Origin: a virus | Direction: 5' to 3' (one strand) | Length of the DNA stretch: 21,790 nt | Virus record (IMG/VR): IMGVR_UViG_3300009788_000327 | Coordinates: 1 to 21,790 of that record | Shown: positions 8,313 to 15,748 of the stretch, in pieces | Position numbering within the stretch: position 1 is the first letter of the stretch | Layout: each line of letters opens with the position of its first letter | Notes under the pieces: model-generated | Databases searched by the model: none | What the model was told of the DNA's origin: nothing | What the model saw: the letters and a program-made list of their open reading frames with translations, nothing else | Translations under genes and position numbers: made by a program

Positions 8313-9833
8313 ATGAAAGTAACAAAACAACAAGTAGGTGAACTCTTCGAAAAAGTAAAGGATGAACAAAAGCTTAAAGAACTTCTCCAAGAAATCTTCT
8401 CCCACAAAGAAAACATCCAAACGTTCGGAGAAGTAGTATTTCCCAAAACCGTAATCAACAAAACTCCCAATTTCCACTCCGAAATCTACGAATTACTATT
8501 TAAGCCAGGAAATGATGCACTGGCCGCACCAAGAGGACATGCTAAAACGTCCGTTACAGGTATAATTTTCTTGATTTATTGCATAGTTAATGAATTGGAG
8601 GAATATATTGTTTACATCTCTCAGAATCATTCTAAAACAGTCCAGTTCATTGACCCTATTAGGTTTGAGTTTAAGAACAATAAAATGCTACGATTCATTT
8701 ACGGAGACTTAACGCCGCGCCCAGGCAGAGGTGATGATGGAAAGGATCGTGAGGATTGTTTCGATGTTGGAGGATGCAGAGTTGAAGCGGTGTCGTTCGA
8801 AAAGAATCTGCGAGGTTTCAAATTCCGAAATATACGTCCAACCCTCATAATTGGTGATGATATTGAATCTGATGATAGGGTCCTTAATCCAGAGCTTCGA
8901 GAGAAAGACCGAAACAAACTAAACAAAGTAATCATCCCCAGCCTGGATATTAACGGCCGCTTTAAGATGATTGGAACATTGCTTCACTTGGATTCTCTAC
9001 TCAACAACAAAATTAAACTATACAAAGGAAAGGTGTTTGCAGCATGCAATTCGGAGTTTAAGGATCTATTATGGCCCGAACGGTTTACTGAGGAAAAATT
9101 AAGGAAAACTAAACACGACATTGGATCTGTGGCATTTCAACAAGAATATTTGAATAACCCAGTTGACAACTCGAGCTCACTAATCAAACGAGAATGGATA
9201 GAACAATGTTTCAGAAAAGACCTCTCATCTGAAGATGTGTTCAATATGGAATTTAGTGTGAAGACGATGGGTGCGGACTTTGCCTTTTCTGATAGAGTGT
9301 CTGCGGATGAGAGCGCTTACGCCGGGCTAGGCAAGAAGGATGAATTTTATTATTTGCTGAATTGTCAAAAGGACAAAGGTCTCTCAGTTAATGAACAAAT
9401 GGATATCATCAAATCGCAACTATTCGAGAAATACCGATATGACAAAATAGGCTTAGAGGAAAACTCCATCAAGGCCATAAGCAAAGACATTGACCAATGG
9501 AAGTTGCCTATCACATTATTTTGGACATCCGCAAACGACCCCGCCGCCCGAAAGAAAGAAGATTACGACTGGACAAACAAACGTCACACAGTTGGAAAGA
9601 TTAATCTGATTATGAGGCTCGGAACTGCATTCGAAAATAAAGAGTTCATAATCCCATACAAAACAGAAGCCGACAAACAAATTGCGGACCGTATTTTAGC
9701 AGAGTGCACGTCCTTTGCTTTGTCTGATGGGAAACTTGTTGAAGCCGGAGTTCATCCAGATATTCCAATAGCACTTGGTTATGCACTTGAATTAATGAAC
9801 ATGGGCGGCGAATCCTCGTGGGCTTTTGTTTAG
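8313..9833 (+). CDS. terL: Terminase large subunit (506 aa)
   Basis: This is the DNA-packaging motor and headful nuclease. The ATPase domain shows Walker A APRGHAKT (72-79), Walker B LIIGDDIES (178-186) and coupling motif GTLLH (221-225). The C-terminal RNase H-like nuclease shows GADFAFSD (D322), a Glu pair in LEEN (about 382-383) and HPDIPIA (D483), the expected acidic triad. Length is normal for the family. It acts at the portal vertex with the portal and small subunit. It is directly preceded by a small Cys-rich gene and followed by an 87-nt gap with a promoter. The Walker A resembles the 'RGxxKT/S' class of TerL seen in archaeal and bacterial tailed viruses. Confidence 0.92.
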   Translation: MKVTKQQVGELFEKVKDEQKLKELLQEIFSHKENIQTFGEVVFPKTVINKTPNFHSEIYELLFKPGNDALAAPRGHAKTSVTGIIFLIYCIVNELEEYIVYISQNHSKTVQFIDPIRFEFKNNKMLRFIYGDLTPRPGRGDDGKDREDCFDVGGCRVEAVSFEKNLRGFKFRNIRPTLIIGDDIESDDRVLNPELREKDRNKLNKVIIPSLDINGRFKMIGTLLHLDSLLNNKIKLYKGKVFAACNSEFKDLLWPERFTEEKLRKTKHDIGSVAFQQEYLNNPVDNSSSLIKREWIEQCFRKDLSSEDVFNMEFSVKTMGADFAFSDRVSADESAYAGLGKKDEFYYLLNCQKDKGLSVNEQMDIIKSQLFEKYRYDKIGLEENSIKAISKDIDQWKLPITLFWTSANDPAARKKEDYDWTNKRHTVGKINLIMRLGTAFENKEFIIPYKTEADKQIADRILAECTSFALSDGKLVEAGVHPDIPIALGYALELMNMGGESSWAFV

Positions 9834-9920: not shown

Positions 9921-12173
9921 ATGGAAAAGACTTTTAAGAATTTCTTTGGTTTGCTTGGACAGAAGGTCGAAGCAAAGGCCGGAGATGGTGCTGTAACTGC
10001 ATTTGAGGAATCAAGAGACGGACAACCAAAAGCATACATTCCAAACTTTTTTTATAGGCCGCCTTTTGGATATCCAAGATATGAGGATCTTAATTACCAA
10101 AGGCAGTTGGCTGAATCTGTTTATGTTGATATGGTAGAAACGGCCATAATTGATCAGGTTACTTCTTTTGATTTTACGATTGTTGCTGAGGATAGAGATG
10201 GAAATGAAGTTCCAGGGAAAGATAAGGAAGTTGAAGAGGTTAAGGAGTTTTTTTATAATCCAAATACTAATCCAGGAGAAAGTTGGGAGAAGATAGTTGC
10301 TGCAATGTTACCTGATTTGTTGGAAATTAATTCTGGGATAATGGTTAAGGTTTTCAATTCGTTCGGAAAGATGGTAGAAATTGTTGCGCGGGATGGGGCC
10401 GCATTTACAAAGAATCCAGACGTATATGGAATGTTCACTAATCGAGCAGATTTGATTTTGATGAAGAACATTTATGATCCGGACCCTCAGGCAGAACAAA
10501 TAGAAAATCCGTTTCCTGCAATTAATGGTTATTTGACAAGTGGTGAAGCTCGGGAAGAGGGAGCATATTTTCAATATGGATTTAATACAGGGGCTAGACC
10601 TGTTCCGTTCGGAAAGAGAGAAATTATTTGGTTTGAGAAGAAGGTGCGAACTAATAAAATCTATGGCCGAAGCGCAATGGCGGTTTTGGCAAAGACAGTT
10701 CAAACTCTTATTTATGCAGTTGAGCATAATCTTGAATACTTTTCTGATAATTCTATTCCCCCAGGGATTTTAGGTTTGGAGGGAATGGCTACTGGTGATA
10801 TGAAAGCATTTGGTCAGCAATGGGCTGAATCTCAAAAGAAGAAGGATGATTTAGGCAATTGGAAAAAGGCTTTTCACAAACTTGCAATAGTCAACAAGAA
10901 AGCAACTTTTGAAAGATTAGGATTTACTAATCAGGAATTAGAATTAATCGAATCTCAAAAGTGGTGGGCAAAAATGGTTTGGGGAGCATTTGGTTTGACT
11001 GCAACTGACCTTGGATTTACTGAGGATGCAAAGGGAAGTGCAAATCAGATTGTTCAGACTGCTGTTGCTAGAAAGAGAATTATTTATCCATTGTTAAGGT
11101 TGATTGAGTATTATGTAAACACCCAGATTATTCCGGAGTTCGGGTATGAGGGGATTCGTTACAAGTATAAGATTTTTGATGTTGATGAGGAAACAAAGAA
11201 ATGGACCCTTTACAAATTACAAACAGAATCAGGATTAAAAACTGTAAACGAAATCAGGAACTCGGAAGGACTTGATCCGGTTGAGTGGGGCGAGGAATCT
11301 CCAAAGCAATGGACACCAACCGACAGCACAAATATTAATGTGAATGATTCAAGACAAACTGATGCAAATAAGATTAATAATGATTCTCGAGCTGCGAGGG
11401 CGGCCTTAAATAAGAACCCAAAAAAAAACATAAAAGCACAAACTACTGATTCGCCGCTTATTTTGGATCCAAATGAAGAACTAGATGAGAATGATTTGGA
11501 GAAGGTGATTGTTGAATTTTTGGATGAGAATGAAGATAAGGTTATGGAGATTTTAGATTCTATAAATACTAAGAATCCATTGGCCGAGATTAAAGGGATA
11601 GACGATTTGCCAAAGATAATAAAAAACCTATTCCAAATTTTCAATATTAAGAAGATTGTTAATTTAGTGATTGGTAATGAGTATGATAATGGTTGGGAGA
11701 AATCCGAAAAAGAATTAGACAGAAATGTTCAAATGAACAAGGGTGCTTTGGAGTTCTTGCAAGATTATACCTTTGATAATATTAAGAGCATGACTGAAGA
11801 GATTGCAAATGATTTGAAAGCAGAATTAAGCCGGGGAATTATCAATGGTGAGAGTATTACTAAGTTAAAGAAGCGAGTAACAAAGGTTTTCAATGTCGGA
11901 ACTAATAGGGCCACAATGATTGCCAGGACTGAATCTAATCGAGCAGAGAATAATGGAAAGCTTTTGGCAATGAAAGGTTCAGGCGTAGAGAAGCAAAAGA
12001 AATGGATAACGCATGAGGATGATAGGACTTCTGATATTTGTACAAGGTTAGATGACCAAGTGGTTGATCTTGATGCGGATTTTGTTGATTCTAAAACAGG
12101 ATGGACTGGCCAGGCGCCGCCAAGCCATGTGAATTGTAGATCCACAATTGTTTTTATGCAGAAGGAAGAATAG
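9921..12173 (+). CDS. Portal protein fused to MuF-like domain (750 aa)
   Basis: The first about 470 residues look like an HK97/SPP1-type portal: a conserved early helix/strand region, FGKREIIWFEKKVRTNKIYGRS (232-251 in part), the long helix VLAKTVQTLIYAVEHNLEYF, and a C-terminal helical segment with TVNEIRNSEGLDP typical of portal clips. After a Lys/Asn-rich linker and an acidic helix (about 515-590), a MuF-type head domain follows at about 610-745, with ARTESNRAENNG, KKWITHEDDRTSD and PPSHVNCRS, the standard end motifs. The portal is the dodecameric DNA gate; MuF proteins assist head assembly or are injected. Most viruses encode these separately, so the fusion is notable. Confidence 0.88.
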   Translation: MEKTFKNFFGLLGQKVEAKAGDGAVTAFEESRDGQPKAYIPNFFYRPPFGYPRYEDLNYQRQLAESVYVDMVETAIIDQVTSFDFTIVAEDRDGNEVPGKDKEVEEVKEFFYNPNTNPGESWEKIVAAMLPDLLEINSGIMVKVFNSFGKMVEIVARDGAAFTKNPDVYGMFTNRADLILMKNIYDPDPQAEQIENPFPAINGYLTSGEAREEGAYFQYGFNTGARPVPFGKREIIWFEKKVRTNKIYGRSAMAVLAKTVQTLIYAVEHNLEYFSDNSIPPGILGLEGMATGDMKAFGQQWAESQKKKDDLGNWKKAFHKLAIVNKKATFERLGFTNQELELIESQKWWAKMVWGAFGLTATDLGFTEDAKGSANQIVQTAVARKRIIYPLLRLIEYYVNTQIIPEFGYEGIRYKYKIFDVDEETKKWTLYKLQTESGLKTVNEIRNSEGLDPVEWGEESPKQWTPTDSTNINVNDSRQTDANKINNDSRAARAALNKNPKKNIKAQTTDSPLILDPNEELDENDLEKVIVEFLDENEDKVMEILDSINTKNPLAEIKGIDDLPKIIKNLFQIFNIKKIVNLVIGNEYDNGWEKSEKELDRNVQMNKGALEFLQDYTFDNIKSMTEEIANDLKAELSRGIINGESITKLKKRVTKVFNVGTNRATMIARTESNRAENNGKLLAMKGSGVEKQKKWITHEDDRTSDICTRLDDQVVDLDADFVDSKTGWTGQAPPSHVNCRSTIVFMQKEE

Positions 12174-12391: not shown

Positions 12392-12459
12392 TCATACTCA
12401 CGGGGGGCATGGGCGACTCAGGTATATTCCCGCCCCGTGTCTTATAATCATGGAAGAAG
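12392..12459 (+). repeat. Direct repeat copy A: hairpin element plus TATAAT-CATGG
   Basis: A 5' block TCATACTCACGGGGG (12392-12406), a variable loop, and a 3' block at 12433-12459 (CCCCGTGTCTTATAATCATGG then AAGAAG) are shared with copy B at 12766-12831. CACGGGG pairs with CCCCGTG to make a hairpin; the loop (26 nt) differs in sequence and length from copy B. After the repeat the ATG-led frame closes after 10 codons, unlike copy B. CTTATAAT could be a TATA box for a transcript starting near 12470. Confidence 0.65.
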
Positions 12460-12494
12460 GAATTAAAAAAACAATTTGGTAGATAATCCAAATC

Positions 12495-12526
12495 TTTAAA
12501 TTAATAGTCCCCATTTTTTGAAGGGG
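12495..12526 (+). promoter_or_regulatory. TATA box and CCCC/GGGG inverted repeat before tRNA-like gene
   Basis: A TTTAAATT box (12495-12502) sits about 32 nt before the tRNA-like 5' end, predicting a transcript that starts a few bases upstream of it. Between them lies CCCC (12509-12512) ... GGGG (12523-12526) around a T6 run, which could be an operator. Confidence 0.45.
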
Positions 12527-12530
12527 TAAT

Positions 12531-12609
12531 GCAAGCGTAGTATATTGGTAATGCACCAGCCTAGGTTAAAACAGTACTGGATACGCAGGTTCGAATCCTG
12601 CCGCTTGCT
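12531..12609 (+). tRNA. tRNA-like gene, Gly-type body with abnormal anticodon arm
   Basis: The acceptor stem GCAAGCG (12531-12537)/CGCTTGC (12602-12608) is perfect. The D-arm is GTAT-ATTGGTA-ATGC (12540-12554) with the invariant GG. The T-arm is GCAGG-TTCGAAT-CCTGC (12585-12601). The body (GTAGTATATTGGTAATGC, CCAGCCT, CTGGATACGC) resembles archaeal tRNA-Gly. However, the anticodon arm between CCAG (12556) and CTGG (12580) is 25 nt instead of 17, and no Gly anticodon (NCC) can be placed. Possible readings are a tiny intron, an ochre-like or UAA-type loop (GTTAAAA), or a non-decoding tRNA mimic. CCA is not encoded, as expected for archaea. Confidence 0.6.
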
Positions 12610-12610
12610 T

Positions 12611-12636
12611 TGGGTATCGTGGTTCGAGGCGACCCA
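12611..12636 (+). ncRNA. Hairpin with T-loop-like sequence just after tRNA-like gene
   Basis: TGGGT (12611-12615) pairs with ACCCA (12632-12636), with an inner CG/CG step and the loop TGGTTCGAGG, which contains a GGTTCGA T-loop signature. GGTTCG (12621-12626) can alternatively pair with CGAACC at 12649-12654. It may be a remnant of a second tRNA or part of the processed transcript. Confidence 0.35.
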
Positions 12637-12705
12637 GCTATAAGAGGCCGAACCTATAACTTTAAGTTTGACACTGGGAAAGACTAGAACTGGTCTTCGG
12701 ACTGG

Positions 12706-12764
12706 GATGTGGGTAAGAGGATGTAGCTTCCTAGAAATAGGGCATTCGAGCCTAAACCCACATC
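12706..12764 (+). ncRNA. 59-nt mini-cloverleaf, tRNA-like RNA
   Basis: A perfect 9-bp terminal stem GATGTGGGT/ACCCACATC encloses three small elements: AAG...CTT (D-arm-like, with GG in the loop), CCTA-GAAA-TAGG (tetraloop where an anticodon arm would be) and a GC-ATTCGA-GC loop resembling a T-loop. The upstream 12680-12705 region has a UUCG-tetraloop hairpin. The overall shape is a tRNA lacking a decoding arm. Interpretation is by hand folding only. Confidence 0.4.
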
Positions 12765-12765
12765 T

Positions 12766-12831
12766 TCATACTCACGGGGGTTCAAGGCTTCATCTCCTCT
12801 CCTCCCCCGTGTCTTATAATCATGGAAGAAG
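12766..12831 (+). repeat. Direct repeat copy B: hairpin element plus TATAAT-CATGG
   Basis: Shares both blocks with copy A (12392-12459). Here the stem is 8 bp, CACGGGGG (12773-12780)/CCCCCGTG (12804-12811), with a pyrimidine-rich loop. The arms stay complementary while loop length differs by 2 nt, which changes any reading frame, so selection seems to act on structure rather than protein. The 3' block provides the ATG of the small Cys protein at 12822. Confidence 0.65.
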
Positions 12832-12920
12832 AAATAAACATAGACTTCAATAAGGATAAGAAATGCACAGATGGACTCTGTGGAAAATGTTGGATTTGTA
12901 ATTGGTTAGATAAACAATGA
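12822..12920 (+). CDS. Tiny four-Cys protein (32 aa)
   Basis: The ORF MEEEINIDFNKDKKC... has C15, C20, C23 and C26 (CTDGLCGKCWIC), a plausible single-zinc module in 32 residues, then an ATGA overlap with the next ORF. Its start codon lies in the repeated hairpin element, of which copy A has a truncated version of the same beginning (MEEGIKKTIW). Coding potential is moderate; overlap and cysteine pattern match the other small proteins here. Confidence 0.45.
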   Translation: MEEEINIDFNKDKKCTDGLCGKCWICNWLDKQ

Positions 12921-14644: not shown

Positions 14645-15748
14645 ATGAAATCTGCATTTACTGGTGCGATTGGCGAAGATTTTGATGAGCAAGCTGCTTA
14701 TTCAACTACATTCGGTAATCTAAAAAGTAAGACTAGGTATTGGGACCCATCAAGTGGAATGGATTTGCGACAGCATGCAGGGTTAAAAGCTCTGAATACT
14801 GAAACAGGTGGCGCGGGAACTGCTGGCTTTGCCATGATTCCTGTTTACCTAAGTCCATTGGTAGTTGATGAATCTCGGAAAAGAACTCCATTAGTGGAGT
14901 TGCTTCCAAGAGTAACCAATCTTGGTATGTTTGCTGATTGGAATAACATTGAAGAAAAGGGAGCTGGTTTTACGGCTGCTGAAGATGCTGCGTTCGGGGA
15001 ATCCGACGACACTATCGACAGGCATTCTATACCTATCAAATTCCTTTATTCAGTTGGAAGAGTAACAGGTCCGTCCCAAGCGGCGCAACCTGCATTCGTT
15101 CTACAAGGTTTCCAGGGAACTGGAAGCGGGTTAGGCGGAAGTGCTTTTTCAGATGTTAATGCTCCAAACGCACAGCAATTTAGAGTCTTAACTGCTGCAA
15201 GGGCTATAAAGGAATTGGAAGAAAGTTTGATTGTTAATGGTGATGCATCTACGGATGCAACTGAATTCTCAGGAATTGTAAAACTCCAGGGAACTGAAAA
15301 CGTTACAGATAAGTCTGCGACGGCATTGGTACTAAGAGATATCGATGACACAGTTCAGAAAGCATTTGATGATGGTGGTAACGTTAAGTTGGCCATTGGA
15401 TCTAGTGCTGCCGTTACAGACCTAAGAGCGATTACAATTGATACATATCGTTATAATCCAGGTGATATCCCTAATGGTATTCTACCATTTGGTGTCCCAG
15501 CTGCAATTGTTTTACATACAATGTCAGGACCAATACCATTGATCCCGTCTATGTATTTGAGCAATACTTCAGGTGCGAAACAAATTTACTTCCTTGATAC
15601 AGATTACATCGAGATGCGAGTTCTACAAGATATGACTTACGAAAGATTGGGTAAAGCCAACGATTCGGACAAGTTCTTCTTGAAGATATACGAGTGTCTA
15701 GTGATGAAGAATCCTAAGTTCAACGCGTTCATTGACAACATATTGTAA
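14645..15748 (+). CDS. Major capsid protein, HK97-fold (367 aa)
   Basis: It immediately follows the protease-scaffold gene and is followed by a strong T-tract terminator, the classic position of the MCP. The N-terminal about 45 residues look like a delta/arm region; the rest mixes beta strands and helices with a P-domain/A-domain-like pattern (RTPLVELLPRVTNLG, IPIKFLYSVGRVTGPSQAA, ARAIKELEESLIVNGD, DYIEMRVLQDMTYERLGKAN, LKIYECLVMKNPKFNAFI). 'Gly-Asp plus helix plus invariably hydrophobic C-terminal strand' is typical of HK97-fold MCPs. No catalytic motif. Length is within the family range. Assignment relies on order and overall pattern, not a single motif. Confidence 0.82.
   Translation: MKSAFTGAIGEDFDEQAAYSTTFGNLKSKTRYWDPSSGMDLRQHAGLKALNTETGGAGTAGFAMIPVYLSPLVVDESRKRTPLVELLPRVTNLGMFADWNNIEEKGAGFTAAEDAAFGESDDTIDRHSIPIKFLYSVGRVTGPSQAAQPAFVLQGFQGTGSGLGGSAFSDVNAPNAQQFRVLTAARAIKELEESLIVNGDASTDATEFSGIVKLQGTENVTDKSATALVLRDIDDTVQKAFDDGGNVKLAIGSSAAVTDLRAITIDTYRYNPGDIPNGILPFGVPAAIVLHTMSGPIPLIPSMYLSNTSGAKQIYFLDTDYIEMRVLQDMTYERLGKANDSDKFFLKIYECLVMKNPKFNAFIDNIL

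Follow-up and report, generated by a model that had tools for sequence, protein, structure and literature searches.

A viral tRNA-like element without a usable anticodon arm, joined to a conserved UGACA/GAAAGA hairpin, points to an undescribed RNA unit

The closest described counterparts of the locus considered here are the tRNA-miRNA-encoded RNAs (TMERs; miRNA, microRNA) of murine gammaherpesvirus 68 (MHV68), in which an uncharged viral transfer RNA (tRNA)-like structure is followed by stem-loops and the host enzyme RNase Z (ELAC2) separates them (PMC12239594). Other RNAs share part of this organization. The rnaC (species 1 RNA) of phage T4 is a stable RNA from a phage tRNA cluster with a T-arm-like 3' end (GGTTCGAATCC). 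GOLLD and ROOL are structured phage RNAs of unknown function that often lie by tRNA islands (PMC12286853), and the Y RNA YrlA is a small RNA in which a tRNA-like domain is joined to another module (PMC7790460). The DNA analysed is a 21,790-base record (IMG/VR virus record IMGVR_UViG_3300009788_000327, positions 1 to 21,790), referred to in full as the window, and its gene content is that of a tailed virus. It carries a tRNA-like element, downstream of which lie a conserved hairpin and then a terminal stem. The loss of the anticodon arm and the recurrence of this combination in other viruses point to an undescribed viral RNA rather than an odd decoding tRNA.

The tRNA fold of the element at 12531-12609 (+) is well supported. 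A covariance search, proposed as a check in the preliminary description of this DNA, gave a complete match to Rfam family RF00005 (model positions 1-71) at 52 bits (gathering score 29; E = 9.6e-9). As had been stated, the element has intact acceptor, D and T arms; 7/7 acceptor pairs form, the variable region reads ATAC and base 73 is T (T12609). ARAGORN in bacterial mode called no tRNA, and the covariance match holds no valid 7-nt anticodon loop. The body resembles a Gly-type tRNA, as had also been proposed, but the identity as Gly type is not established. The departure from a normal tRNA lies in the anticodon arm, which is indeed 8 nt over length with only four outer pairs. Neither as it stands nor after intron removal does the element provide the 5-bp stem, 7-nt loop, U33 and usable anticodon of a decoding tRNA. 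All 8-nt excisions leave at most four stem pairs, with 31:39 unpaired and with the predicted A at position 34 (ACA, AGA or AGG). In the suggested alternative with GTTAAAA as the loop and UAA as the anticodon, only two of five inner pairs form (T.G and G-C). A bulge-helix-bulge splice site has a 4-bp helix flanked by two 3-nt bulges (PMC4033280), and no inner 4-bp helix exists within the anticodon loop, so that no such site is possible. The intron-containing tRNAs of the related virus L002 provide a comparison: the same excision procedure gives five pairs and the valid loops CUCAUGA (Met CAU) and CUUGUAA (Thr UGU), with introns that sit after position 37. Because the L002 tRNAs splice validly in silico the method is sound, and the failure of the window arm to yield a valid stem, anticodon or splice motif is genuine.

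In the related virus G014 a degenerate tRNA-like, scoring 20.6 bits, precedes TTTGACACT(C)GGGAAAGAC and then a terminal stem, as in the window, and the downstream words common to both prompted pattern scans. Pattern TGACACTGGGAAAGACNNG had 37 matches in IMG/VR, against one for the reversed control pattern, and pattern TGACACTCNGGAAAGACNGRG had 60. After removal of duplicates and addition of isolate phage loci, 88 distinct viral instances were obtained, the sequence variety of which is underestimated because the patterns fix most letters. One match, in L078, was excluded from the count since it is apparently coding sequence, and matches to the 16-17 nt core were disregarded as chance-like where they fell within streptococcal or lactococcal terminase genes or within T4-like Enterobacter phages. 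The common layout is UGACA, a stem of 4-5 bp, a GAAAGA loop and the second stem strand. In the variant with a 5-bp stem the freely chosen N-N pair is Watson-Crick in 55/55 cases (T-A 25, C-G 14, G-C 13, A-T 3), where chance would give about one in four; instances with a 4-bp stem have CTAG, CTGG, CCAG or CCGG as the 3' strand. Because the free pair is always Watson-Crick and all four pair types occur, the element is an RNA hairpin. There is also enrichment of a second helix with a 3' strand that stops immediately 5' of UGACA (mean score 11.3 versus 8.7 in a swap control). No family of Rfam 15 reaches its gathering score over the hairpin in the window and the motif-bearing loci, and the hairpin sequence was not found in the papers searched. 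In isolate phages it is mostly located within unannotated gaps: between Mu-F-like and capsid genes in Shewanella phage 3/49 and upstream of terL in Rheinheimera Barba phages, while Vibrio phages, such as pVco-7, and the uncultured phage cr272_1 also hold it. The terminal stem that follows the window hairpin is the same in L075 and occurs in altered form in L035. In L135 (9100-8850, minus strand), the hairpin is preceded at a distance of about 240 nt by a 5' end like that of transfer-messenger RNA, GGGGGTGACCTGGATTTGACAG.

The hairpin is coupled to tRNAs or to tRNA-likes. ARAGORN finds a tRNA within 300 nt in 26 of the 88 instances, every one on the same strand, as compared to 8.7% for random positions in the same loci. 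In 16 instances, in phage tRNA arrays, the tRNA begins 1-10 nt after the hairpin. The neighbour in archaeal-type viruses is instead an upstream tRNA-like, and 11 such units were collected (window, L035, L126, L127 and L163 with one each, L075, L091 and L176 with two each). The canonical anticodon arm of 5 bp and 7 nt is absent from all 11, whereas the T arm is kept and 5-7 of the seven acceptor pairs form. The distance from acceptor to T arm ranges from 28 to 54 nt, and the anticodon regions are broken differently from virus to virus. Terminase and portal are common to four of these viruses (L075, L091, L126 and L163), none of which showed a match to the capsid of the window family, so that the combination of tRNA-like and hairpin exists in two or more virus groups. 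For these four, 'archaeal-type' is a working label; distant relatives of the terminase occur in two DPANN genomes. One of the acceptor stems of L075 passes, together with its base 73, directly into GACACTGGGAAAGAC; between the two hairpins of this locus (9700-9620, minus strand) there is also an even shorter acceptor-like hairpin, GCACA...TGTGC, with the same TTGGGG...CCCC element after it. Leader hairpins comparable to that of the window precede the tRNA-likes in L091 and L126, and TTGGGG... counterparts of the TGGGT...ACCCA hairpin come after those in L035 and L075.

In its layout, with a non-decoding tRNA-like followed directly by stem-loops that would share a transcript, the locus resembles a TMER, in which the stem-loops number one or two; this resemblance holds for the window (12531-12764) and for all seven other loci with units. 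However, TMERs belong to an animal herpesvirus, are made by RNA polymerase III and yield miRNAs through Dicer, and no sequence relation to them is known. The unit described here has the conserved UGACA/GAAAGA element instead, and cleavage by RNase Z is what we infer for it. Because its processing is only predicted and neither RNA polymerase III transcription nor miRNA products are to be expected of a prokaryotic virus, we do not class the unit as a TMER. In T4 rnaC, from a bacterial phage, the tRNA-like part is located at the 3' end, and the possibility that the hairpin is part of rnaC or rnaD was rejected since the motif is in neither. GOLLD and ROOL are much longer, many GOLLD members exceeding 800 nt (PMC12286853), and neither has an Rfam match in the window or the motif-bearing loci. 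YrlA is bacterial and encoded with Rsr, and Rfam gave no match to Y RNA families.

In view of the above, the explanation that we favour, with modest confidence, is that the element belongs to a non-decoding viral RNA unit of tRNA-like and stem-loop, in which the tRNA-like is kept as a handle for processing by RNase P and RNase Z. The acceptor/T half of a tRNA suffices for both enzymes. The tRNA-like would form the 5' half of a noncoding RNA that also includes the UGACA/GAAAGA hairpin and the terminal stem, all presumably on one transcript, for which the upstream TTTAAATTAA could serve as a TATA-box-like stretch. The acceptor/T half would be retained as the part that is read by tRNA end-processing enzymes. 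Excision of the tRNA-like by host RNase P and RNase Z could then determine the 5' end of the hairpin RNA that follows and release it, and this hairpin RNA may be the product that matters. In the phage arrays, with a tRNA start 1-10 nt downstream of the hairpin, the RNase P cut of the neighbouring canonical tRNA would define the 3' end of the hairpin RNA. More tentatively, the hairpin itself may represent an undescribed RNA family of viruses of DPANN archaea and of diverse bacterial phages with a host-independent activity, for example as a small ribozyme or as a packaging or protein-binding element, the archaeal viruses using tRNAs as delivery or processing handles. Provided that the host assignment is right, its presence in both bacterial and archaeal viruses would fit such an activity. 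If the processing-handle explanation is correct, the TMER-like design of tRNA-like and stem-loop would extend to prokaryotic viruses, and the covariation-supported hairpin, present in unannotated stretches of isolate phages of Vibrio, Rheinheimera and Shewanella, makes expression and function accessible in the laboratory.

Several observations weigh against this explanation. The 11 units were located via the T arm, so that its retention is partly selected for, and several of the viruses concerned are without a proven archaeal host. Bacterial phages also carry the hairpin with no tRNA detected nearby, and the tRNA-like is thus not required for it. Exact-pattern searches for relatives of the island gave no close match to the unit in the window. 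Taken as a whole, this unit has an ordinary fold energy (z -1.07), and the 4-bp stem of the window hairpin competes with an alternative GACUAG/CUGGUC pairing.

Three other explanations can be considered. The element might be a decaying viral tRNA whose anticodon was eroded by drift and which serves no purpose of its own, its adjacency to the hairpin reflecting only the hairpin's habit of lying near tRNAs. The ordinary or intron-bearing tRNAs of L002, L007 and L038 and the variation of the anticodon regions between viruses agree with this. Yet the window element has all seven acceptor pairs, the GG of the D loop and an intact T arm, and in 11/11 units it is the anticodon part that is broken while the acceptor/T half is kept, a pattern unlike that of uniform decay; we regard this explanation as rather unlikely. 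It is improbable that the tRNA-like acts as a decoy which sequesters a host enzyme during infection, such as an anticodon nuclease, a synthetase or the CCA-adding enzyme. The acceptor, D and T arms are expected to give an L-shaped fold, and such a role has been proposed for the tRNA-like of YrlA (PMC7790460), but tRNA nucleases and many synthetases usually target the anticodon, which here is missing or variable, and what the units have in common is the acceptor/T half together with the hairpin. Engagement of glycyl-tRNA synthetase, as put forward earlier, finds no support in the analysis.

The third explanation, a real tRNA with a very short 8-nt intron or a suppressor or recoded tRNA with an expanded loop, is very improbable, although intron-bearing tRNAs occur in relatives and a second tRNA or tRNA-like in L038 has an 11-nt loop. 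The preliminary description had offered both versions. The minimal intron was rejected on the excision results above, with no 5-pair stem, no usable archaeal anticodon and no splice helix in the window and valid tRNAs from L002. The suppressor or recoded tRNA was rejected because TAA (17), TGA (13) and TAG (4) all serve as ordinary stops of window genes. Stops in the capsid genes of two relatives, TGA in L026 (8163) and TAG in L031 (8724), are isolated singles and were not accepted as a code change; the TGA falls at a conserved Gly, and both genes are otherwise intact. Of the ideas put forward earlier, a non-decoding mimic comes nearest to the processing-handle explanation, in that the element is non-decoding and recurs beside the hairpin in 11/11 units. 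The earlier observation is confirmed and its interpretation supported in part; it overlooked the downstream hairpin module and the flanking direct repeats.

Table 1. Positions of the features discussed, in window coordinates.
Feature	Position	Strand	Description
Terminase-like gene	8313-9833
Portal gene with Mu-F domain	9921-12173
Flanking direct repeat, copy 1	12392..12466	+	hairpin CACGGGG...CCCCGTG, then TCTTATAATCATGGAAGAAG
Putative TATA-box-like stretch TTTAAATTAA	12495..12504	+	sequence only; about 30 nt before tRNA-like
Leader hairpin CCCC-ATTTTTTGAA-GGGG	12509..12526	+	immediately 5' of tRNA-like
tRNA-like	12531..12609	+	RF00005, 52 bits; acceptor 7/7 pairs
Acceptor stem	12531-12537/12602-12608	+	GCAAGCG/CGCTTGC, 7/7 paired
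D arm	12540-12554	+	GTAT-ATTGGTA-ATGC; D loop holds GG pair
Aberrant anticodon arm CCAGCCTAGGTTAAAACAGTACTGG	12556..12580	+	25 nt versus usual 17; 4 bp CCAG/CTGG, 17-nt loop
T arm	12585-12601	+	GCAGG-TTCGAAT-CCTGC
TGGGT...ACCCA hairpin	12611..12636	+	after tRNA-like; from sequence
UGACA/GAAAGA-loop hairpin TTTGACACTGGGAAAGACTAG	12667..12687	+	pattern scans; 57 nt 3' of tRNA-like
Terminal stem GATGTGGGT...ACCCACATC	12707..12764	+	from sequence and fold
Flanking direct repeat, copy 2	12766..12838	+	runs into open reading frame 12822-12920
Capsid gene	14645-15748

The tRNA-like is located in a gap of about 1 kb between the portal gene and the next structural gene that holds only small open reading frames. 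Searches with portal and capsid gave 31 related viral loci. Relatives in the capsid alignment are contigs of metagenome-assembled genomes labelled Nanoarchaeota, Woesearchaeota or 'archaeon', with one in a WOR-3 bin. These relatives and the intron-bearing tRNAs of L002 indicate, short of proof, that the host is probably among the tiny symbiotic (DPANN) archaea. In 371 genomes of the phylum Nanoarchaeota, a search for a copy of the tRNA gave T-arm-half matches only, and no copy of the hairpin was found at two or fewer mismatches. The unit is enclosed by direct repeats at a spacing of 372 bp (12428-12466 and 12800-12838, 39 nt, 90%; 12392-12406 and 12766-12780, 15 nt, 100%), which hold two copies of a hairpin and of the beginning of a small open reading frame. 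A 27-mer is identical in both copies, where none is expected, and TCTTATAATCATGGAAGAAG in copy 1 is a truncated copy of that start (MEEGIKKTIW*).

Some further observations concern the relatives. A second conserved RNA, AACATTGCAGGGYAGRAGTRTCCGAGTTCGTATT, lies directly 3' of viral tRNAs in L002 (1320-1400) and L007 (1688-1760). In L007 (5990-6900) and L014 (5370-6130) the portal gene has an HNH endonuclease gene at its start, with the portal 5' end present in a second copy beside it (partial in L014), and at the PPFGYP site both loci share the +1 frame break CCC-TTT-CGG. More insertions within the portal gene occur at differing sites in L014 (7444-8093), L019 (2015-3078) and L027 (4186-5195).
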